Origin: Treponema ruminis | Lineage (GTDB): Bacteria; Spirochaetota; Spirochaetia; Treponematales; Treponemataceae | Direction: 5' to 3' | DNA length: 64,000 nt | Assembly: GCA_017161305.1 (NCBI GenBank) | Contig: CP031518.1 | Location: forward strand, 124,001 to 188,000 | Shown: piece by piece, positions 18,680 to 28,623 of the stretch | Position numbering within the stretch: position 1 is the stretch's first letter | Layout: the number at the start of each line of letters is the position of its first letter | Made by a program: the position numbers and the translations under genes | Notes under the pieces: model-generated | Seen by the model: the letters and a program-made list of their open reading frames with translations, nothing else | The model's database searches: none | Told to the model about the DNA's origin: nothing

Positions 18680-21600
18680 ATGAAAAAACTTTTGCGATTA
18701 ATTTCGGTCGCAACCATGCTTCTCGCAGCTACATCTTTCATGGCTTGTAGCAGCGATGATGATGACGATTCAGGTGCACGCAGCGCTTCTGAGCATGCAC
18801 GTGGAGCTATCGTTGGTGTTGTTCTTGACAACAGGGGTGAACCTGTTGAAGGCGCAACAGTCACTCTCGGCAATAAAACTGCTTCAACAAACCGTGGCGG
18901 TGAATTCATACTTGAGAACGTTGATGTCAACGATCCAACAGTAAAAGCCGTTCAGACAACTGCTTCTACTAGCGGTACACTTGTACCGGCTACATCTACA
19001 AATGTTCCAACAACAGGCACTACTTATGCTTATACATTGACTGTAACAAAGAACGATTACATTTCTGCCCTTATTAAGGGTGTATATGTTTCTTCTGCTG
19101 AGAACATCGGTGGAATCGAGGATGCACGCCTTTCAGCTTTGAAAGATCAGTATGCAACAATCCTTAATTCTTACGCTACTGCTGTAGGCACAGGTTCTAT
19201 AGTTGCAAGTGCTACAGGCGATGGCTATGGTGCTACTATTAAGGATAACGAGGACAAATCTGCTACAATGACAACTGTTGCAAATGCCCTCAAGGAAATC
19301 CAGAAGCTTTATTCAGAACTGGGTACAACATACAGCTCAACATGGGCTGAAGGTACACTCATTCCTTTGAATGCTTCTTTGAGCGGTAAACTCAAGCTCA
19401 ATCCTTCACCAGCAACAGCTGAAGTTTTCAGCGAGACAACTTATCCAGCTCCAAAAGACACTGTTGTAACAGTTACTTATAAATCGGCTGATAGCAACGC
19501 TCCTTATACATTCGATTCTAAGACAGACGCTGAGGGTAATTTCAAATTTGAAAAACTCCCATCTGGTGTTCCTCTCTCAATTAATGTTGAGGGATTCACA
19601 GCTAAAGCTGGCGAAGTTGAGGCTTACTTCTCAACAGACGTTGGTTTGTCTACATATCGCTCAAATGCCGCAGAGCTCCTTAACAACGGAAGCTATAATG
19701 ATTCAACTGCAACATCTGCAGCAACAATCAAAATTGACGGCAATTCTTTGAATGTTGCTGGTGTTGACATTATGCTCTTCGCTCAGCTTGAGAAGATTTG
19801 GGTTAAAGAAACAAACCTCATCAAGAACAACAGCGCAGCACTTATCAGTGTTAAAACACCACTTGAATTCACATTCAACAAAGCTATCCAGCGTGTTGAC
19901 ATTGCAGGTTCTGGTTTCCAGGATGTTAAAGATGAGAACTACGTTGTAACAATCGACAGCACAGATGCTAAGAAAGTTACAATTACTCCAAAAGATGGCA
20001 TTTGGACACCAAAAGCTGCTGGAAATCAAACAACTGATGCTAAAGCTGGCGAAGTTCGACTTTCAGTTCTCGCAGCTGATGGAACTAAAGAACTCTTGAA
20101 TGACAAGTTTACAGCTTACTTTGATACAACAATCTACGTTGAAATCAGCGATTCTTCAAAGGACGATGTTGAGCTTGGTCTTACACAGCCAGTTAAACTT
20201 ACTTTCTCTAAACCAATGACAACTGCAAGCGTTGTTGCTTACGAAACTTATTCTTCAAAAAAATTGACAAACGCTTTCTCTAAGAGTTGGAATGAAGGAA
20301 AGACAGAGCTTACACTTACTCCAACAACATTCTGGGACACAGTTTCAGATGCTGACGGAAAAGTTGTATTCACTGTAAAAGGTCTTGCACAGGATTTGAC
20401 AGACGATGTTAAATACTGGAAAAACAATGTTGAAGTTGATACTACAGGAACTGAGCCGAAAAACGTTGGTCTTATCGCTTACTTCGATAACAAGATTGAC
20501 GTAACTGTTGCAAAAGTTGATGACAAATCATTTACTCTTACATTCTCTAAAGCAATCAAAGCTCTTACAAAAGATGACATTGCTACTGCTGTAACTGTAA
20601 CACATGCAACAACAAAAGCTGGTCTTGCTACTTCAACTGCTGCTGTAACTGACTTTGAAGCTAAATTCAACGATACAAACACAGTTCTTACAATCAGTGC
20701 TAAAAACAATGACTTTGCTAACACTGGATACTATCGCGTAACTCTTGGCGAAGCTGTAGTTGGTAAAACTGGTGAAACAAAATTCCGCGCTGCTGGAACA
20801 ACAAATATTCTTACAACAAAGAACTTTGACACAGACTTCACAGTAGGCCCAGAAAAATTCGCTGAAACTGCTGTTGAAATCGTAACAGAACTTCCTGCTG
20901 GTGCTGAGCAGTCACGTGCTGCATTTGTAACTGCAGAGAAATATCTTAAACTTACATTCAACAAAGCTGTAAGAAGTTCTAAACTTTTAGTTTATGACAA
21001 ATCTTCAACTTCTTACAAAGATGTAAACAACTATGTAGCTGACAAATCAGTTTACCTTGCTCTTAACAAACTTTCTGACGAGTCAGAACTCAAAGTTCAG
21101 GGTACTGTAACTGCTGTAGACGGTGCTACAAAAACATGGGAAGTTGGCAAAGAACTCGAAACAGGTTATGCTCTTTCTAAGCTTACATACAAGATGGTTT
21201 CTACAAGCCTCTATAAAGAAACTGTATCTATCGCAGCTGGACAGAACGATGCTAAAGTAGAAAAGATTCAGCCAACAGACAGCATTACATTCACATTCGA
21301 TCAGGATGTAAGCACTGCTAAATGGACAGCTGAGCTTTATGACAGCGATAAAGTAGGTTCAAATGACCTTACTCAGACTTCTTATGCTGTAACTGCAACT
21401 GCTGCTGGAAAAGTAGTAACTGTAGCTTTGACAGAAGCAAGCAAGAAACTTGACTTTGGTAAGACATACTACCTTTCACTTAAAGCAACAAAGGGTAATG
21501 ATGTTGACACAGTTGTATTGTTCAATACTGACAAAGCAACTGCTGCTGACTTTGCTAACCTTGTTTCTGATCCTACAGCTTCACTCTCTACAAAGATTCT

Positions 21601-22897
21601 TAAAAAAGCTGTTGGAGAGCACAACTACATCAAAATCGAAACTGTAGGTTACTACGTTGTTCCTGCTGGAGACAAATCTGCTACAACTAAGTTTGACGAC
21701 TTCAAGAAGTCTATCAGTAGCCCAATCGTAATTGAATTCACACAGGACATCACTGGCTTCACAGCTGTTCTTGCTAACAAAGATACATCTTCAGGTACAC
21801 CTTATTTCTACAGCTGGAAAAAGGTTGCTGACGTAGACGCATCTAAGACTTATGCTTCTACTGCTGTAGTTGATGGAAAGAAACTTACAATTACTCCAAA
21901 ATATGCATTCACAAGCGCGGCTGTAGTTGTTCCTTACGTATTCAATGCAAAGGGTGAAATTGTTGAACTCAAAGATGCTGCTGATAAAGCTCTTATCGAC
22001 AAAGACAATGCAGACAAGCAGTTCATTGCTAAAGATCTTTCTAACGATAAAGACCTTTCTGCTGCTCTTGACTCAACACCTGCTGCTACAGAAAATGCTC
22101 TTGAATTGGAACAGTTCAATGTAAATGAAACTGGTAACGGAACTTCAATCTGGTTCCAGTTCAATGCAATCCTTTCTAGTACATCTAAGGATCCAAACTA
22201 CGGAAAGTACACACTTTACAGAAAGGCTACTGATGCTACAACTGCTGCTACTAAATGGGTAAAAGTAGGAGATACAACATATCTTATTCCTGCTACTCCT
22301 ACTACTGCTCTAGGTACTGGAGAGGCTAAATTGCAGTATATCGATGTTGATGCTGCAGCTTCAGATGCTGACAAGAAAACCAACATAAAAGATGCTGTAA
22401 TCAATGACTTCCGTCTTAGAAAACGCAAGGCAGCAATTGTTACTACAACTAGTGCTAAAGAATTTGACTATGCTAAAACTTCTGTATACAGACTTGTATG
22501 TTCAATTGATAACGTAGAGATATATTCTGCTCCTGTTACTGTAGAAGACAAGTTCCTTGATCTTAAAATTACTGAAGGTGCTAATGCTTTGACTCCTTCT
22601 GGATTCACAACAGAATCTCCTGTTACAGTAAAAACATATAAGTTTACTTCACCATGTTATATTGTTGATGTTACAAAAACTGTTCAAAGAGGAACTGCTG
22701 CTACTGTTGTAGAGTCTGGCAAGCGTCTTGGACCTACAAATGCAAGCAGAGTAAAAGTAGAGCTTAATGCAGCTCGCACTGAAATCACTCTTACAATTGA
22801 TGATGAAACTACAGCTGGTACTGGTGATAAGATTATTCTTACTGCATTTGATGCTGCTGGTCAGTCAAAACAGTATATAATCGACTACAAGAACTAA
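18680..22897 (+). CDS. Giant multi-domain surface lipoprotein (1405 aa)
   Basis: A large exported lipoprotein of unknown function. The signal peptide ends at SFMAC, with lipid-bearing Cys23 followed by SSDDDDD, an acidic run that may favour export beyond the inner membrane. A carboxypeptidase regulatory-like domain follows (about 43-85, GVVLDNRGEPVEGATVTLG), with a second near 240-295. The rest is a string of SbsA-like Ig modules, each with a conserved strand: FTFNKAI, LTFSKPM, LTFSKAI, LTFNKAV, FTFDQDV. The rod-like build suits a surface scaffold or adhesin. Codon use differs from its neighbours: GCT, ACA, GTT and AAA dominate, as in highly expressed genes here. It has its own promoter and a strong terminator. 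I cannot name a ligand. Confidence 0.85.
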   Translation: MKKLLRLISVATMLLAATSFMACSSDDDDDSGARSASEHARGAIVGVVLDNRGEPVEGATVTLGNKTASTNRGGEFILENVDVNDPTVKAVQTTASTSGTLVPATSTNVPTTGTTYAYTLTVTKNDYISALIKGVYVSSAENIGGIEDARLSALKDQYATILNSYATAVGTGSIVASATGDGYGATIKDNEDKSATMTTVANALKEIQKLYSELGTTYSSTWAEGTLIPLNASLSGKLKLNPSPATAEVFSETTYPAPKDTVVTVTYKSADSNAPYTFDSKTDAEGNFKFEKLPSGVPLSINVEGFTAKAGEVEAYFSTDVGLSTYRSNAAELLNNGSYNDSTATSAATIKIDGNSLNVAGVDIMLFAQLEKIWVKETNLIKNNSAALISVKTPLEFTFNKAIQRVDIAGSGFQDVKDENYVVTIDSTDAKKVTITPKDGIWTPKAAGNQTTDAKAGEVRLSVLAADGTKELLNDKFTAYFDTTIYVEISDSSKDDVELGLTQPVKLTFSKPMTTASVVAYETYSSKKLTNAFSKSWNEGKTELTLTPTTFWDTVSDADGKVVFTVKGLAQDLTDDVKYWKNNVEVDTTGTEPKNVGLIAYFDNKIDVTVAKVDDKSFTLTFSKAIKALTKDDIATAVTVTHATTKAGLATSTAAVTDFEAKFNDTNTVLTISAKNNDFANTGYYRVTLGEAVVGKTGETKFRAAGTTNILTTKNFDTDFTVGPEKFAETAVEIVTELPAGAEQSRAAFVTAEKYLKLTFNKAVRSSKLLVYDKSSTSYKDVNNYVADKSVYLALNKLSDESELKVQGTVTAVDGATKTWEVGKELETGYALSKLTYKMVSTSLYKETVSIAAGQNDAKVEKIQPTDSITFTFDQDVSTAKWTAELYDSDKVGSNDLTQTSYAVTATAAGKVVTVALTEASKKLDFGKTYYLSLKATKGNDVDTVVLFNTDKATAADFANLVSDPTASLSTKILKKAVGEHNYIKIETVGYYVVPAGDKSATTKFDDFKKSISSPIVIEFTQDITGFTAVLANKDTSSGTPYFYSWKKVADVDASKTYASTAVVDGKKLTITPKYAFTSAAVVVPYVFNAKGEIVELKDAADKALIDKDNADKQFIAKDLSNDKDLSAALDSTPAATENALELEQFNVNETGNGTSIWFQFNAILSSTSKDPNYGKYTLYRKATDATTAATKWVKVGDTTYLIPATPTTALGTGEAKLQYIDVDAAASDADKKTNIKDAVINDFRLRKRKAAIVTTTSAKEFDYAKTSVYRLVCSIDNVEIYSAPVTVEDKFLDLKITEGANALTPSGFTTESPVTVKTYKFTSPCYIVDVTKTVQRGTAATVVESGKRLGPTNASRVKVELNAARTEITLTIDDETTAGTGDKIILTAFDAAGQSKQYIIDYKN

Positions 22898-23022: not shown

Positions 23023-23040
23023 TATCCGTCAATTCTAGCA
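23023..23040. repeat. Short dispersed motif CCG[TC]CAATTCTAGC, copy 1
   Basis: One of three near-identical copies (also 23330-23347 and 24377-24394) that bracket a small gene and the first rpn gene. In reverse complement it reads like an extended -10 (TGCTAGAAT). Confidence 0.4.
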
Positions 23041-23325: not shown

Positions 23326-23370
23326 AATCAATCCGCCAATTCTAGCCATAAAAATTGACGGATTGATTTG
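23326..23370. terminator. Imperfect hairpin between convergent genes
   Basis: ATCAATCCGCCAATT pairs with AATTGACGGATTGAT (one mismatch) around an 11-nt loop. It separates the converging 75-aa gene and rpn1 and contains repeat copy 2. Confidence 0.55.
23330..23347. repeat. Short dispersed motif, copy 2
   Basis: Reads AATCCGCCAATTCTAGCC; it matches copy 1 at 13 of the last 14 shared positions. Confidence 0.4.
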
Positions 23371-23371
23371 T

Positions 23372-23620
23372 TCATTTCGTTACAGATACGGCTTCGCGGT
23401 CAAGTTCTTCTTTGAGCGCAAGCACTTGCTCCAATGGGAGGGAGACGGCTTGAGAAATTTGTTCTAATGAACCAAGGTTCATGCGGAGCAAATTCTTCGC
23501 ATTTGCGATGGAGGTTTGCTGTGTACCTCGTTTCAAGCCTCGTTTTAAACCTTCTGCAAGAGCGATTTTCCTGGCTTCTGCAGCTCTCTCTTTTCCATAT
23601 TCTTCTACGATTCTGCACAT
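23372..23620 (-). CDS. Candidate internal product of rpn1 (RpnS-like, 82 aa)
   Basis: An in-frame ATG at 23620 inside rpn1 has its own Shine-Dalgarno: AGAAGGAG (23629-23636), 8 nt upstream. Translation from it gives an 82-residue protein, MCRIVEEYGKERAAE onward, holding the four-residue repeats and the whole conserved tail but none of the nuclease core. In E. coli, separately translated C-terminal fragments of this kind (RpnS) bind and block the full-length toxin. Expression here is inferred from sequence only. The coding constraint of the surrounding frame could place a purine-rich stretch by chance, but two of the three neighbouring genes repeat the arrangement at the same distance from the C-terminus. 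Confidence 0.6.
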   Translation of the reverse strand: MCRIVEEYGKERAAEARKIALAEGLKRGLKRGTQQTSIANAKNLLRMNLGSLEQISQAVSLPLEQVLALKEELDREAVSVTK

Positions 23621-24265
23621 ATTTCTTACTCCTTCTGTTTCCTGCTTGTGGTAGCGGACTTTTTCTGCTAGCTCGCTGTAATTCATTTCATCGGCATTTG
23701 GTGTGCAAAAATCATGCATCAGTTTGCCGAGCGCATCGTTTCCTCTGTATGAGCCATTCACATAAATTATATTACACCCATCGTCAAATGGCAAATATGT
23801 GCTGGCGGTTGAAGGCAGTTCGACTGTCTTTTTGATTTTGTAGAACGGTCGCCCCAGACCATAATAGTCATTCTCGGTTATGAAAATGATATACGTTTCG
23901 GGAAGCTCAGTGAAGTCCTGTTTCTTTTTGAGACTGTGACTGTCGAGCATCGCTTGATTGTAACGAACCCGCCTTGGTGAGGCCCCTTCGTCTGCTCTTT
24001 GGACTTCCACGTTGTACACTTTGCCTTTAGTGTCTTCCGCGAGAATGTCCAGCCGAACAGAGCGGCCGAATAGATTCCGCTTTTCTTCCTGTGTCGTGAC
24101 TTTCTTAACGCGTAAGTCGTCACGGTTAAGAAGGATTCTCAGAAGAAATTCTGTGATTTCGTTGTCGCCGTCGAACACCACGGTCATAAAGTCATCGTCC
24201 ATGAGTCGCATTGCTTGTATTCGTGCGAGCATTGCCGGATCGATTGTGTCGAAAATACTTGGCAT
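23372..24265 (-). CDS. Rpn-family PD-(D/E)XK nuclease, copy 1 (full-length form)
   Basis: A 297-residue protein of the Rpn / 'PD-(D/E)XK nuclease family transposase' group. The nuclease core shows Asp73 (VRLDI) and the E-x-Q pair Glu87/Gln89 (VYNVEVQ), followed by the RYNQAMLD helix. The C-terminal part has the helix EYGKERAAEARK, two LKRG four-residue repeats, and a tail (NAKNLLRMN, then SLPLEQVLALKEEL) shared with the other two rpn genes nearby. Family members are toxic DNA nucleases, some shown to give phage defence, held in check by their own C-terminal fragment. GGAGG lies before ATG, and a promoter (TTGACT with TATAAT) sits upstream. Despite the family name there is no evidence it transposes. 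Confidence 0.85.
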   Translation of the reverse strand: MPSIFDTIDPAMLARIQAMRLMDDDFMTVVFDGDNEITEFLLRILLNRDDLRVKKVTTQEEKRNLFGRSVRLDILAEDTKGKVYNVEVQRADEGASPRRVRYNQAMLDSHSLKKKQDFTELPETYIIFITENDYYGLGRPFYKIKKTVELPSTASTYLPFDDGCNIIYVNGSYRGNDALGKLMHDFCTPNADEMNYSELAEKVRYHKQETEGVRNMCRIVEEYGKERAAEARKIALAEGLKRGLKRGTQQTSIANAKNLLRMNLGSLEQISQAVSLPLEQVLALKEELDREAVSVTK

Positions 24266-24311
24266 GGTTTTCTTTTACCTCCATGCCTTATTACTTCCAT
24301 TTTTTTTGCAT

Positions 24312-24343
24312 TTTCGGCAATGCAAATACTCAATTGTCAGAAT
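24312..24343 (-). promoter_or_regulatory. Conserved upstream block of rpn1
   Basis: Contains the TTTCGGCAATGCAA element and a CAGAAT edge, both also found upstream of rpn2 and rpn3. The rpn1 promoter (-35 TTGACT near 24372, -10 TATAAT near 24350) lies next to it. Confidence 0.5.
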
Positions 24344-24376
24344 AATTATAAAACTGGACTGTATTAGTCAATAAAA

Positions 24377-24394
24377 TATCCATTAATTCTAGCC
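24377..24394. repeat. Short dispersed motif, copy 3 (divergent)
   Basis: TATCCATTAATTCTAGCC; it shares the ATTCTAGC core with copies 1 and 2. Confidence 0.35.
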
Positions 24395-24483
24395 TTGTAG
24401 AGGTCGAGGCCTTGAAGGTAAAACAGTGCATGGGCAGCCAGAACGTCTGTCCCGGAGCAACGGATTTGAGAAAGGGAGTCTCA

Positions 24484-24520
24484 GGACAAATATCCCTCTA
24501 GAAAATTGCCCTCCTGCGCA
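24484..24520 (-). pseudogene. Relic fragment of another rpn-type gene
   Basis: The minus strand here reads GGGCAATTTTCTAGAGGG and encodes GNFLEGY before a stop. The same 18 bases occur in rpn2 at 24795-24812, where they encode GNFLEGYFKE. The rest of the 24395-24541 gap is non-coding. This looks like a remnant of a duplicated copy. Confidence 0.45.
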
Positions 24521-24540
24521 TAGCCGCAGGAGAGTTTTTT
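24513..24540. terminator. Hairpin with T-run after rpn2
   Basis: A perfect stem, CTCCTGCG / CGCAGGAG, with TTTTTT on the plus-strand side; it lies directly downstream of the rpn2 stop on the other strand. Confidence 0.6.
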
Positions 24541-24541
24541 G

Positions 24542-24775
24542 TTAATGCATAATTAAGATTTCGTTCTTGAGTGCCAGCACCTGCTCCAGAGGCAGGGAAC
24601 AACATTTTGCAATTTTCTGTGGGGATAAATCGGTTTCAATGAGAAAGTTCTTCGCGTTGGCAATGGCATTCTGTCGTTCACCATCACTGTAGCCATCCTC
24701 GTAGCCTTCGGCACGGCGGTTGCGGTCATAGTCTTCCTGATTGAATTCTGTGAGAAGGTTTCCGACAATGTTCAT
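24542..24775 (-). CDS. Candidate internal product of rpn2 (RpnS-like, 77 aa)
   Basis: An in-frame ATG at 24775 is preceded by a textbook Shine-Dalgarno, AAGGAG (24782-24787), with a 6-nt spacer, inside the rpn2 reading frame. The 77-residue product starts MNIVGNLLTEFNQEDYD and includes the YEDG/YSDG repeats and the conserved tail. It matches in position and size the candidate small product of rpn1, and the gene-within-gene antitoxin design known for E. coli Rpn proteins. Not proven; ribosome profiling or a tagged copy would settle it. Confidence 0.65.
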   Translation of the reverse strand: MNIVGNLLTEFNQEDYDRNRRAEGYEDGYSDGERQNAIANAKNFLIETDLSPQKIAKCCSLPLEQVLALKNEILIMH

Positions 24776-25522
24776 CCGCTGCTCCTTAAAGTACCCCTCT
24801 AGAAAATTGCCCTTGATGGCAAAGTCCACGGCCTCGTTGATTGCTTTCTCCGGCTCCATTCTCTTGTCGAGGTTCGCCTTTACCCGGTCAACGAAGACAC
24901 AGTAATGATACAACGACTCGCATTTTTTTTGAAGACTTTCGTTGTGATTTTTATTGATGTTGATTACAGTTGCCGTCCATTCGAACTCTTTGCTCTCATC
25001 TTTGAGCTCAAATAAATCAGAAAGCCTATATTTTACGATATCGTCTTGTTCCTGATGACCGTTGTAGAAGACAACAAACTTCGGCGAAGGGATTTTTATT
25101 CGCGCCCGGCCGAAAATGTCCAGATTCCGTTTGGCGACTTCCTTCTGGTAAAGCTGGGAGAAGTAAATCAGTCCCCTGAGTGGCATATTTGGATTTACCG
25201 TGGACTGCTGCTCGAAGAGGTGCATCTCCGAGTTTATCAGGAAGGACAGATCGTTCTTCATGGTGACGTAGATGACGTCATCAATCGTGGTAATCTCCAA
25301 TGCTGAAATGTCGGTGTAGTTTTTGTCGCTAAGGGCGTTGTAAAGCGAGAGAAGCCAGCGTTTGCTCCGGTCGTCCTTGCCGCTGTAAATCGAGCGGAAG
25401 AGAGTGTCACGAAATGTCCTTTTCGTTGCGTCAATGCCTGGTAGGGTAGCTGATTTTGTTTTTACTGCCTTCTCCTGCATTTTCGTTCGATTCTTCTTGA
25501 TTGCCTTTGTTTTCTTTTTCAT
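24542..25522 (-). CDS. Rpn-family PD-(D/E)XK nuclease, copy 2 (full-length form)
   Basis: A 326-residue Rpn-type nuclease of a different subgroup from copies 1 and 3. A Lys-rich N-terminus precedes the core, where Asp91 (NDLSFLI) and Glu104/Gln106 (LFEQQ) fit the D...E-x-Q pattern. The middle has KFVVFYNGH and the YHYCVFVDRV helix. Near the C-terminus come RAEG, YEDG and YSDG four-residue repeats, then the tail NAKNFLIETD and SLPLEQVLALKNE common to all three copies. I chose ATG 25522 because AAGGAG precedes it by 6 nt; an earlier in-frame ATG lies inside the leader hairpin. The nuclease halves of the three genes are unlike one another, yet the tails and two leaders are alike, which suggests domain exchange. 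Confidence 0.82.
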   Translation of the reverse strand: MKKKTKAIKKNRTKMQEKAVKTKSATLPGIDATKRTFRDTLFRSIYSGKDDRSKRWLLSLYNALSDKNYTDISALEITTIDDVIYVTMKNDLSFLINSEMHLFEQQSTVNPNMPLRGLIYFSQLYQKEVAKRNLDIFGRARIKIPSPKFVVFYNGHQEQDDIVKYRLSDLFELKDESKEFEWTATVININKNHNESLQKKCESLYHYCVFVDRVKANLDKRMEPEKAINEAVDFAIKGNFLEGYFKEQRMNIVGNLLTEFNQEDYDRNRRAEGYEDGYSDGERQNAIANAKNFLIETDLSPQKIAKCCSLPLEQVLALKNEILIMH

Positions 25523-25624
25523 ATGAACTCCTTTTGTATTAATATGTGTAAGCTCTTTTTCCTTACACATATTAATTGCCAAAATTTTTTCGTTTTCGGC
25601 AATGCAATTGGAAAAAAGTCAGAA
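25523..25624 (-). promoter_or_regulatory. rpn2 leader with perfect 15-bp hairpin
   Basis: Perfect arms ATTAATATGTGTAAG (25538-25552) and its complement (25562-25576) with a 9-nt loop lie just before the Shine-Dalgarno. Next comes TTGCC...GGCAA, a second imperfect hairpin, and the CAATTGCATTGCCGAAA block. Nearly all of it recurs at 28308-28407. A candidate -10 (TATAAT, 25639-25644) lies upstream. Confidence 0.7.
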
Positions 25625-25671
25625 TAATGCAAAAAAAAATTATAAAAAGGGGGCAAATTATTCAAAAACAC

Positions 25672-25717
25672 CACAGCCCGCATACACGACAAGCTATCGT
25701 ACATGCGGGCTGTTTTG
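25672..25717. terminator. Terminator after the rpn3 remnant
   Basis: CAGCCCGCAT (25674-25683) pairs with ATGCGGGCTG (25703-25712); T-rich sequence lies on both strands. Confidence 0.7.
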
Positions 25718-25755
25718 TATAAATCGAATATTCGTGTCTGGAAAATTTTCAGTTT

Positions 25756-25908
25756 TTAACTTTCTGTTTTCAATTCGTCTTTGAGGGCAAGCACCTGGTC
25801 AAGTGGCAGGGAACAACCTTGAGCAATTGTTTCTGGTGTTACTCCAAGTTTTAACAGATTCTTCGCATTGGAAATGGAAGCCTGTTGTGCACCTTTTGCA
25901 AGACCTTC
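25756..25908 (-). pseudogene. C-terminal remnant of rpn3 cut off by the IS element
   Basis: Encodes the last 50 residues of the third rpn gene (EGLAKGAQQASISNAKNLL, then LPLDQVLALKDELKTES). Joined to 28306-27473 with one copy of the 3-bp duplication removed, it restores a single frame of 987 bases (328 residues), close to the size of its siblings. It has lost its promoter and start and is unlikely to be expressed except by read-through from the IS. Confidence 0.9.
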
Positions 25909-25911
25909 GGT
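25909..25911. repeat. Target-site duplication, left copy (GGT)
   Basis: GGT adjoins the left IS end; the right copy is at 27473-27475. Removing one copy restores the rpn3 frame. Confidence 0.85.
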
Positions 25912-25973
25912 TGAATTGTACCCCTTGTCAAGGACACATAAGAAGAAGGGATTAAAAAATCCGAAGAAAATTT

Positions 25974-26918
25974 TCAAATATCAGTAGGATTTTCTTTCTT
26001 TAGAGGATAGATACCAGTAGTGAAATATTTGTAGTATTCATCTGGAGAAAGTTTAGCCAACTGCCACTGATAACGTTCTGTGTTGTAATAATCAATCCAG
26101 TCATCAATTATTTTCTTTACATCATCAAAAGTTTTACAGTCAGAAAGATTTATCTCATCTTTCATGTGACCGAAAAAACTTTCTTGAGGAGCGTTATCCC
26201 AACAGTTACCACGTCTGGACATCGACTGCCGTAGCTTTTTATCAATAAGAAGTTGAATAAAACTGCAGCTGGTATAATGGCATCCCTGGTCACTGTGTAT
26301 CAATGTTTCGGTAGTAAGAGAAATACCATGTCTGTCAACAAGAATATTAATGGTTTCAAGAACAAAGTCTACCTCAAGTGAACTGCTCAGTACATACGAA
26401 AGAACTTGCCTTGTGAAAGCATCAATGACGGTTGAAAGATAGCAGTATATTCCGTTATAGGGAATATATGTAATATCCGTCAGAAGTATTTTTCTGGGAC
26501 CGAATTTCGTAAACTCCCGGTTTACAAGATTCGGGGAAACATTGTTTGTTTTTAATGCTTTAGCCATCCTTCTATAAGGATTCGCCTTTCTAATTGGACA
26601 ATACAGGTTGTATTTGTTCATCAGACGGCGTATTTTCTTCAGGTTCATAACAACAGGTGGATTTTGATGTAGTAAATACATATGAATTCCTTTTGCCCCC
26701 TTGTCATATCCCCGATGATTATAGGCTGAAAGTATAATTTCAAAATCTTTTCGGTCTAGTTCCTCCTTCTTTTGTCGTTGCTCTTCTGACATTACCCATT
26801 TGTAATATCCGGATCTCGATACACCGGCAATTTCACATAACATTTTTACGGACAGTTTATTGTTCTTCTGTGATACAACATCATGGATAATCTCAAATTT
26901 ATTTGAAGATGTCTCCAA
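25974..26918 (-). CDS. IS3-family transposase OrfB (DDE integrase domain)
   Basis: A 314-residue OrfB with an HTH_21 segment (LCEIAGVSRSGYYKWV), then a retroviral-type integrase core: first Asp in ILLTDITYIPY, second Asp in LIHSDQGCHYTS, and Glu in NAPQESFFGHMKDE, giving a full D,D(35)E set. The C-terminal YNTERYQWQLAKLSPDEY is typical of the IS150 group. It has only a TTG at its head (26918) and no ribosome site, in keeping with expression as an OrfAB fusion by -1 frameshifting. Confidence 0.93.
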   Translation of the reverse strand: METSSNKFEIIHDVVSQKNNKLSVKMLCEIAGVSRSGYYKWVMSEEQRQKKEELDRKDFEIILSAYNHRGYDKGAKGIHMYLLHQNPPVVMNLKKIRRLMNKYNLYCPIRKANPYRRMAKALKTNNVSPNLVNREFTKFGPRKILLTDITYIPYNGIYCYLSTVIDAFTRQVLSYVLSSSLEVDFVLETINILVDRHGISLTTETLIHSDQGCHYTSCSFIQLLIDKKLRQSMSRRGNCWDNAPQESFFGHMKDEINLSDCKTFDDVKKIIDDWIDYYNTERYQWQLAKLSPDEYYKYFTTGIYPLKKENPTDI

Positions 26919-26920
26919 AA

Positions 26921-27334
26921 TTATTGCTTCTTTTTTGAGTTGTCCGCTGTAATAATTTTTTTTAAAAATTCAACTTCCTGACGTAGGTACAACAGTTCAG
27001 CTTGCATCTGTGAAATTGTTTGGGGAGAATTATCTGTTTCCGGCTTTTTTATACCAGTACGGTAATTATGGTTTTCACCTTCTGTAAAACCAGTGCCTGA
27101 CAATGCCTGATTTTTTATTTTTTGAACAATGCAGTCTATTTGTTTCTGGGTAAATAAATCTAAATCATAACCAAGGTCTTTTATGATTTTTCTTGGTGCA
27201 ATTCCGGCCTGATATCGTATCCAGAATTCTTCTTTGAACTTAATTGTAGGATAAAATTTACAATTTGAAACTTTTAGCGTATATTGATTTGATTCAAGTT
27301 TCTTTTTTTCTTCTGCGGTGAATTTCCTTTGCAT
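26921..27334 (-). CDS. IS3-family OrfA (HTH and leucine zipper)
   Basis: A 137-residue OrfA. An N-terminal helix-turn-helix region (about 25-60, EEFWIRYQAGIAPRKIIKDLG) is followed by a linker and a leucine-zipper helix (MQAELLYLRQEVEFLKKI) that pairs with OrfAB. GGAGGTG lies 5 nt before ATG, and TATAAT is near 27356, inside the IS. The last codons TCA AAA AAG AAG CAA TAA contain the slippery site that leads into orfB. Confidence 0.9.
   Translation of the reverse strand: MQRKFTAEEKKKLESNQYTLKVSNCKFYPTIKFKEEFWIRYQAGIAPRKIIKDLGYDLDLFTQKQIDCIVQKIKNQALSGTGFTEGENHNYRTGIKKPETDNSPQTISQMQAELLYLRQEVEFLKKIITADNSKKKQ
26930..26936 (-). other. -1 ribosomal frameshift site (A AAA AAG)
   Basis: A heptamer six bases before the orfA stop, in the correct phase. 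Slippage by one base continues as E-A-I-I-L-E-T-S-S into orfB with no stop. Confidence 0.85.
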
Positions 27335-27469
27335 CGCAGCACCTCCAGTGTAGATACATTATATCTTCTGGATTTTCTAAGTGTCTACTATTTGGGATTT
27401 TCCCTTTTATTTTAGTGTCTACTTTTATGGATCCCTTCTTCTAAATGTGTCTACCATTTGGGGTATATT

Positions 27470-28306
27470 TTAGGTAAGTCCTTTAGCACGTCCTTCGGCC
27501 ATTCCCTGTGCCATTCCTTGAGCCATTCCTCTTTCGACGGCTTTCCGTTCCTTTTCCAGAAAGTTCAGCCTTTGCGTGTTATAGTCGCAGATTGCCGTAT
27601 GAATGGAATTTTCGATAGCCCAGTTGATTTCATCCTGACTTACAGTTAGAAGTGATGATTTTGCATGCATAAGGCCTTCCTCGCTCTTTATGAGGCTTTC
27701 GATGTAGTCTTTCTTGCGCTCGTCACTGGCATAAGAAAGAAAGAGTCCCCATTTTTCAAGCTTTGTAAGTTTTTCGGGCGGTGTGCCGATGAGCTTGTGG
27801 ATTTTTATCAGGTCGAAGAAAATGACATTCAGTTTGCCAGCAAGCTTTTTACCGTCCGTCCTTCTCATATTGTACCACTCAAGTGGCGGAAAGTCATCAT
27901 CGCTGAAATGAAAATTCAGCACGGAAATCTGATAGGCCGGGGGCGTCTTCCAGTTGTCGCCCTTGCGGTTGGATGAACTTAAAAGTCGTGCTGCCTGAAT
28001 CTCTGCGCGTGCGGCGTAGTCGTATTCCCTGTTTCTGCACTGAATTTCAAGGTCAATCCGCTCCCCATCATCAAATTTCACGCTGACATCAAAACTCATC
28101 TGGTTTTGGTCTTTAACTTCTGATGCTGGCTCGTTAGGCATGAGTTCAAGGTCAACAATATTCCGGTTCAGAATTGTGGAGATAAAGTCTTTCAGGGCCT
28201 TGTTGGAATCTTCCGTGTCGGCGGCAAACATTGCCTTAAACGAACTGTCGCATTTTGGATCGAGCAGGGCGGTCGGCGAAGGACGAAGTGTAGTTGTATT
28301 TTTCAT
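27470..28306 (-). pseudogene. Rpn-family nuclease, copy 3, truncated by IS insertion
   Basis: The first 278 residues of a third Rpn-type gene. The core has Asp73 (MSFDVSV) and Glu87/Gln89 (IDLEIQ), at the same positions as copy 1, and the RAEIQAARL helix. Near the break are four-residue repeats MAQG MAQG MAEG RAKG, continued as LTEG LAKG in the detached piece. The IS end adds a stop right after the duplication, so a nuclease-bearing protein without the C-terminal tail could still be made; AAAGGAG before ATG 28306 is intact. An in-frame ATG at 27670 with GAGGA 7 nt upstream is a possible internal start. If the tail is the antitoxin part, loss of it should be harmful unless the nuclease is also weakened or sibling tails substitute. 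Confidence 0.88.
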
Positions 28307-28623
28307 GCGAACTCCTTTGAATTAATATGTGTAAGCTCTTTTTTCTTACACATATTAATTGCCAAAATTTTTGCAATTTCGGCAATGCAATTGGAAAAAA
28401 GTCAGAAAATTCCAAAAAAAATTGCGCTTTCTAAAATTTTGTGGGAATTTCTTAGTCTTTGATGGGCTTTTCTTCATCTTGATTAAATCCCTTTTCTCTT
28501 GTTTTTTCCTTCTTTTTTCATTATATTATTTAGTGATAAAGGAATAACCAGTTGATTTATCCAACTTGCGGACTGGGGGCTTGCCCGTATGGGCGGCTGA
28601 ATCTTGCTAAATAGGAGACGTCT
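28307..28623. promoter_or_regulatory. 317-bp gap: rpn3 leader and metK promoter/leader
   Basis: The left part (28308-28407) is the rpn3 leader: perfect 15-bp hairpin arms at 28321-28335 and 28345-28359, the TTGCC/GGCAA hairpin and the CAATTGCATTGCCGAAA block, as in rpn2. Then follows an AT-rich spacer, then the metK promoter (TTGTTT 28499-28504, 17 bp, TATATT 28522-28527) and a structured leader. No gene is seen in it. Confidence 0.7.
28534..28623 (+). promoter_or_regulatory. Structured metK 5' leader, possible switch
   Basis: About 90 nt from the likely transcription start. GCCC (28583-28586) can pair with GGGC upstream (28577-28580) or downstream (28591-28594), and CCAGT / ACTGG competes with GTTG / CAAC. 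The AGGAG ribosome site follows. Placement before metK suggests SAM-linked control, but I cannot match it to a known riboswitch class. Confidence 0.35.

Follow-up and report, generated by a model that had tools for sequence, protein, structure and literature searches.

Do three neighbouring Rpn-type genes of Treponema ruminis, here called g1, g2 and g3, each encode a single long nuclease, or two proteins, the second started inside the frame of the first? The question comes from a first-pass annotation of a 64,000-nucleotide stretch of this genome (the window, C1:124001-188000 of G000, a single contig of 2.9 Mb with a marker completeness of 81%), which read the genes as gene-within-gene toxin-antitoxin systems like RpnL/RpnS of E. 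coli. Our analysis indicates that all three are very probably RpnL/RpnS-type toxin-antitoxin genes, by far the likeliest reading because of their layout and the comparative evidence, and the annotation's gene-within-gene proposal is strongly supported through the conserved internal starts and the family evidence. Systems of this kind are already known; what is new here is that the C-terminal tails are exchanged between nuclease bodies and that the genes share a promoter element with recombination genes. To the explanation as a whole, with two products per gene, a small RpnS that would restrain RpnL, reshuffling of the tails and a shared promoter of recombination type, we assign a probability of roughly 80%. 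The three genes all lie on the minus strand and are laid out as follows.

23372..24265, minus strand: g1, Rpn/PDDEXK_2 nuclease gene (predicted RpnL-type, 297 amino acids); PF12784 at 2e-10, TIGR01784 at 8.6e-18, over the cut-off
23372..23620, minus strand: g1 internal frame (predicted RpnS-type, 82 amino acids to the stop), from ATG 23620; a start with a Shine-Dalgarno (SD) sequence in 29 of 29 genus homologues examined
23629..23636, minus strand: g1 internal SD sequence AGAAGGAG, 8 nt before ATG 23620
24542..25522, minus strand: g2, Rpn-type nuclease gene (326 amino acids), 39% identical to a protein matching PF04754
24542..24775, minus strand: g2 internal frame (predicted RpnS-type, 77 amino acids), from ATG 24775; all 32 genus homologues examined have an internal start with SD
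24782..24787, minus strand: g2 internal SD sequence AAGGAG, 6 nt before ATG 24775
27470..28306, minus strand: 5' part of g3, a PDDEXK_2 nuclease gene into which an IS3 element has inserted; PF12784 at 6.4e-28
27668..27670, minus strand: g3 internal ATG, with GAGGA at 27678-27682, 7 nt upstream; Met in 29 of 29 genus homologues examined
about 25912..27472, minus strand: IS3-family insertion sequence (IS) element within the g3 repeat zone; NF033516 at 2e-79
25756..25911, minus strand: g3 tail piece beyond the IS3 element; C-terminal match to TIGR01784 at 1.8e-4

The internal ATGs (23620, 24775 and 27670), their spacings and the lengths of 82 and 77 residues had been given correctly in the first-pass annotation, and the features it described in the small products, four-residue repeats ending in Gly and a tail of the form NAKN..SLPL(E/D)QVLALK, were found in g1, g2 and g3 alike. 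The third gene is no longer one gene, the IS3-family element having split 27470-28306 from the tail piece at 25756-25911 with, by our reading of the flanks, a 3-nt target duplication; the annotation's figure of 116 residues for a rejoined product is a construct of its own.

How often would such a start arise by chance? We took the 40 other open reading frames of the window of at least 200 amino acids (longest non-overlapping, with an ATG start) and asked for an in-frame ATG in the last 40% of the frame, with at least 25 codons left and a six-nucleotide SD core at 3-11 nt. One of 140 such ATGs in these other frames had the core, versus one each in g1 and g2; g3 has no six-nucleotide core by this strict rule.

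Are the internal starts conserved? A search of 146 genomes of the genus gave matches in 121 (g1), 95 (g2) and 76 (g3), and one locus was taken from each of the 29 best-scoring other genomes per search. The resulting 90 rows (29 for g1, 32 for g2 and 29 for g3) include, for g2, one named Treponema contig and two rows each from L070 and L073, with L074 and L098 near-identical at the internal start. Every row had an SD-paired start codon at the expected place (29/29, 32/32 and 29/29), the span allowed being two codons for g1, ten codons for g2 and only the exact codon for g3. When the codons were shuffled synonymously, the mean SD strength was matched in 0, 0 and 1 of 1000 shuffles for g1, g2 and g3, and other internal ATGs put through the same test gave z values of +1.1, -2.2 and +1.7. 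The g1 homologues start at position 0 or -1, with GTG in four rows; in the g2 homologues the SD sequence shifts along with the start by several codons, the best start lying at offset 0 in 7, +3 in 5, +4 in 4 and +5 in 16 of the 32. Among the 11 g2-type genes of the own genome, the SD excess was equalled in 0 of 400 shuffles. The internal ribosome sites, whose lack of conservation the first-pass annotation had named as a finding that would speak against it, are therefore conserved in the homologues of g1, g2 and g3. Its ranking of the third start as the weakest is borne out by the SD sequence, yet this codon is Met in all 29 homologues and has a purine-rich site before it.

Do the proteins themselves belong with Rpn? 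PF12784 is matched by g1 and g3, and TIGR01784 by g1 over and g3 below the cut-off. The active-site residues D and E-x-Q, assigned to the RpnA type by pattern rather than by alignment, are invariant, with D, E and Q present in 30/30, 32/32 and 30/30 sequences for g1, g2 and g3. A profile built from 12 tails matches RpnA-S (7TH0) with an E value of 0.0016, covering 38 of the 49 residues of that protein. As to single sequences, the g1 tail had no match at E <= 0.001 in Foldseek, with 7TH0 not among the 50 matches listed; g1 alone found two chance-level matches in the PDB and nothing more; and the AlphaFold model of full-length g2 from a single sequence reached a pLDDT (predicted local distance difference test) of 39. 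In PADLOC-DB (2023), g1 and g2 had no match and g3 a weak one (E 0.0019). Scans of viral contigs gave no relatives of g1 or g2, and a scan of named genome contigs with g2 gave one, an uncultured Treponema. One might also suppose that the small product is an accessory subunit, a helical, helix-turn-helix-like partner in oligomerisation or DNA binding that activates or targets the nuclease rather than an antitoxin; we regard this as unlikely, the protein that the tail profile matches, RpnA-S, being one that blocks RpnA-L (PMC10327210).

A number of observations weigh against the RpnL/RpnS reading. Two non-Rpn proteins outscore 7TH0 in the PDB search with the tail profile, and TrpR scores 6.2 in the fold comparison. 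g2 itself matches no Pfam or NCBIfam family; we nevertheless judge it to be an Rpn gene because it is 39% identical (4e-51) to L264 of genome G051, which matches PF04754, the family (YhgA-like) to which the Rpn proteins of E. coli belong. As to the starts, the SD sequence of g3 is weak, and SD strength was scored with the general anti-SD core, not with one taken from this genome's 16S. The best start of g2 stands at the homologous codon in just 7 of 32 rows and is TTG in two and GTG in one, and the other ATGs of g2 also have a slight excess (3 of 200 shuffles equally strong). For g1, pairing at -6 or better is reached in the shuffles in 25.2 of 29 rows on average (15.7 of 32 for g2), so that the bare count of pairings is weak and only their strength is unusual. 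The three g1 genes of the own genome, finally, have no SD excess over what the protein predicts (64 of 400 shuffles).

This last result is what one would expect of ordinary long nucleases, in which conserved charged residues (K-G-V, E-E-G) incidentally give rise to the internal purine-rich stretch and no separate protein is made. Charged residues do have purine-rich codons, and the shuffles retain much of the pairing, with null means of -8.65 for g1 and -8.90 for g3. We nevertheless find this explanation quite improbable, since shuffles that preserve the amino acids fall short in all but the few cases given above, since the SD sequence moves with the start as the residues change (Met becoming Val, as GTG, in the four g1 homologues), and since there are tail-only genes whose sole in-frame start is the internal ATG.

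How variable, then, are the small products? Nine g2 bodies of the own genome have 0.89-0.93 DNA identity over the stretch before the tail and carry, counted by eye, 2, 5, 2, 3, 4, 5, 5, 2 and 3 four-residue units, while their tails are 0.55-0.94 identical to each other; a tail-only copy has six units. In g2 the repeats begin at about residue 21 of the small protein, just beyond the 8-20 residues after the start that are typical of RpnL/RpnS systems. Across the genus, mean identity is 0.57 for the body and 0.31-0.39 for the tail. A g3-type gene at 563873 has a tail that is 0.89-0.94 DNA-identical to five g2-type tails on bodies of a different class, and one tail type on two body classes means that the protein end has been exchanged between nuclease bodies. 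The E. coli systems owe their specificity to the long repeat-bearing helix, S and L having to agree in repeat number, and neither RpnA-S nor RpnB-S blocks the partner of the other (PMC10327210). Following this repeat-number rule, the S and L forms here should fall into compatibility groups. The first-pass annotation had suggested that the matching tails of g1, g2 and g3 let these siblings neutralise one another; the long helix and the repeats differ among them, and we rejected cross-neutralisation through the matching last 40 residues because in E. coli specificity does not reside in that part. Cross-protection is plausible only among near-identical g2 paralogues of equal repeat number.

The genome contains three matches to the IS3-family element (C1:149941-151450, 565168-566677 and 1901752-1903261), all inside the tails of rpn genes, each of another class and in the orientation of the gene, two of them directly after the NAK/AAK position. 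This suggests a target preference for rpn tails, or tolerance of the element by them.

Do tails also occur by themselves? We counted a tail match if it lay at most 1200 nt downstream of a full-length gene that had downstream DNA, a distance at which some of the more distant matches are the next rpn gene. Such matches follow 1 of 3 g1, 5 of 11 g2-type and 3 of 5 other genes in the own genome, and 2 of 29 (g1), 7 of 29 (g2) and 0 of 28 (g3) in the genus. Eleven lie within about 100 nt, six in the own genome (including one decayed and one IS-cut) and five elsewhere. The 5' edges of 10 of these 11 in tblastn fall 0-52 codons upstream of the internal start; the match of the remaining one, S1970268, begins two codons past it, purely an effect of searching only beyond the stop codon of the preceding gene, which the ATG of S1970268 overlaps as ATGA. 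Of the six own-genome copies, four have no in-frame start ahead of the internal ATG, and the other two have earlier starts without a good SD sequence, as judged by eye. Unit number follows the upstream gene in the copy at 1904334 (two units in both) and departs from it in the copy at 566700 (six versus three). E. coli, too, is known to have free-standing rpnS genes (ypaA; PMC10327210). In the window, a remnant is all that is left downstream of g2, and intact and decayed counterparts stand elsewhere in the genome:

24488..24512, minus strand: 25 nt, probably left over from a decayed tail copy downstream of g2; 92% identical to 24789-24813

Tail-only frames without a full-length gene directly upstream were seen at C1:798231-798476, 842596-843054 and 2207692-2207940, the first two closely behind the rpn leader described below, as if the nuclease part had been deleted.

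When would these genes be expressed? All three are preceded by copies of one candidate promoter element, TTTGCA-TTGCCG-N19-WATWWAW, with the core TTTGCATTGCCGAAAA:

24311..24326, minus strand: g1 promoter element TTTGCATTGCCGAAAA
25593..25608, minus strand: g2 promoter element (one mismatch)
28376..28391, minus strand: g3 promoter element (two mismatches)

The core occurs in the genome 46 times with at most two mismatches (3 for the reversed control) and 27 times with at most one (0 for the control). By our reading, these 27 comprise 18 rpn loci, eight sites before other genes and one within a coding region. The element precedes 22 of 25 rpn frames examined and 21 of the 22 in which the N-terminal part is kept (the exception being 1969435). 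The idea of an rpn-only element was rejected, as the repeated core also precedes other genes: recA, ssb, radC, a comF-like gene (PF00156 at E 2.5e-5, narrowly missing the cut-off), a lipoprotein of the endonuclease/exonuclease/phosphatase (EEP) family and, named by reading and each without a Pfam match, a secretin-like gene, a lipoprotein and a putative outer-membrane protein.

Much the same company is found in related genomes. In G051, where 20 of 29 core matches were taken and names without a Pfam run come from the translations, seven sites precede comF-like, secretin-like, lipoprotein, EEP, comM (PF01078 at 1.8e-77), recA and radC genes, nine precede rpn genes, and four have no gene assignment or lie at contig ends. 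From eight further genomes we chose 18 regions, with 19 matches in all. The element is found before recA, ssb, a GmrSD-HNH nuclease and an rpn-like gene in G038 (one more site being unrelated), before recA and ssb in G023, before ORF6N plus a helicase and before GmrSD-HNH in G090, and before a RecQ-like helicase and two rpn genes in G084, where two sites have no gene assignment; the one site in G086 has none either, and those in G042 (two), G098 and G066 are unrelated. Leaving aside unassigned and unrelated sites, 28 of 32 have TTGCCG followed after exactly 19 nt by TATATAW, AATTAAT, AATAAAT or TATTAAT; the deviating boxes are those of g1 and L264 (AGTAATA), the G023 ssb (AATACTT) and the G084 helicase (CCTTCCT). 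Within a species the first hexamer tends to be the same (in G038 TTTGCG at recA, ssb and rpn, but TTTCCA before the GmrSD gene; in G023 TTTTCA at both recA and ssb), a trend to be read with the caution that the search tolerated one mismatch only. The exact form of the core is confined to a small clade, as it is matched in 78 of 200 genus genomes, mostly at just one or two sites each. TTGCCG[AG]AA occurs in 14 of 88 regions upstream of genus rpn genes (some of them near-duplicates), versus 2 downstream and 0 inside, and such words top the 9-mer list of these upstream regions once low-complexity words are excluded. We considered the element as a LexA box, a -35/-10 pair or the site of an alternative sigma factor; the ComX consensus of Streptococcus pneumoniae likewise has a T-rich stretch before its CGAA box, a resemblance only (PMC6560143). 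The GmrSD-HNH proteins behind the element, L274 (G038) and L278 (G090), combine GmrSD-N with an HNH nuclease, and L274 matches REase_II of PADLOC at 1.9e-147.

These data also bear on whether the rpn genes are mobile elements, transposases as annotated, with the upstream element and the exchanged tails as traces of movement and not of regulation. Their family names do contain transposase, and the leader of about 126 nt upstream of g3 has 34 matches in the genome, some in tandem. We hold this to be very unlikely: recA, radC, ssb and comF-like genes are preceded by the element too, in this genome as well as in others, the gap from the element to the AT-rich box is fixed at 19 nt in most sites, and Zhong et al. 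argue against transposition (PMC10327210).

Does the element extend to DNA uptake itself, or to the SOS repressor? comEC is present in six of six genomes, and the 16-mer element is absent there within one mismatch. A TTGCCG-N19-WATTAAT site lies about 400-450 nt before the comEC frame in all six (C1:1133449, L286, in the own genome; L285 and L287-L290 in the others). It may serve comEC as an internal promoter; as it lies inside the preceding coding frame, it may also be explained by nothing more than conservation of the protein encoded there. LexA over the cut-off was found in 52 of 59 genus genomes and not in the own genome, at its marker completeness of 81%; G051 has LexA, and the element is absent within one mismatch from its 2.5-kb lexA region. 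At C1:1455500-1460000 (L217) we noted an S24-type repressor beside a DNA polymerase Y-like gene, by reading of the translations.

Two further observations concern the surroundings of the rpn genes. A short repeat, ATCCGTCAATTCTAGC, lies around g1 (23024-23039, 23331-23346 and 24378-24393; one copy in a hairpin), with five matches in the window versus 0.74 expected at up to three mismatches. Beside the rpn genes, 18680-22897 encodes a putative lipoprotein of 1405 residues with weak, sub-cut-off matches to carboxypeptidase-regulatory-like domains.

How might the parts work together? Each intact gene would make two proteins, a full-length RpnL, predicted to be a PD-(D/E)XK-type DNA nuclease toxic to its own cell, and a small, helical C-terminal RpnS from the internal ribosome site, which would bind the same region of RpnL and hold the nuclease inactive. 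In E. coli the fit of S and L has been shown to depend on how many units the long first helix contains, and the same may apply here. The family in this genome is large, with duplicated bodies, repeats that differ in 12-nt steps and tails swapped by recombination, and extra S genes would arise from tandem duplications starting just upstream of the internal ribosome site. Nearly all members are probably transcribed from the element common to recA, ssb, radC and the comF-like gene; given this sharing, the nucleases would likely be produced or set free as the cell turns on DNA recombination or uptake. More tentatively, and at a little less than an even chance in our view, the Rpn arsenal of this Treponema clade belongs to a DNA-recombination or competence-like regulon (recA, ssb, radC, comF, comM), a placement with an independent counterpart in pneumococcus, and the same recombination reshuffles the antitoxin ends. 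If this is true, the cell would call on its Rpn proteins, as weapons or tools that restrain themselves, upon entry of foreign DNA or breakage of the chromosome, and L-S specificity would diversify within one genome through recombination of the antitoxin ends. Through these results the known range of the gene-within-gene antitoxin would come to include treponemes and a body branch missed by the protein-family libraries used, with a conservation test of the internal start that is independent of E. coli. The element shared with recA, ssb, radC and comF, together with the pneumococcal parallel in ComX, makes the question of the Rpn trigger testable, and the mix of repeat numbers and swapped tails within one genome is a ready set for S-L matching.

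How do these genes compare with known systems? They resemble E. coli RpnL/RpnS (RpnA-E and RpnP2; Zhong et al. 2023, PMC10327210) in the PD-(D/E)XK body, the internal start in the last third, the variable four-residue repeats, the separate downstream S genes and the RpnA-S-like tail. They differ in that the treponeme bodies belong to the PF12784 branch or to one without a Pfam match, that the tails are swapped between body classes, and that a large array shares its promoter element with recombination genes; the word competence does not appear in the main text of that paper. In S. pneumoniae, genes derived from a recombination-promoting nuclease belong to the late-competence regulon of ComX, where, as here, rpn-like genes are grouped with recA, ssbB, radC and comFC (PMC6560143). 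Those genes are pseudogenes in that strain, one of them beside an IS element, and the phylum, the sigma factor (ComX) and the box (TMCGAATA) are different, with no internal antitoxin discussed in the consulted part of the report. The treponeme genes are also like polymorphic toxins in having a conserved front, an exchangeable C-terminal module and stand-alone copies of that module (PMC3482391). Unlike in polymorphic toxins, no sign of export turned up, although export was not searched for, and the conserved front is the nuclease, while the exchanged module is the putative antitoxin or dimerisation end.

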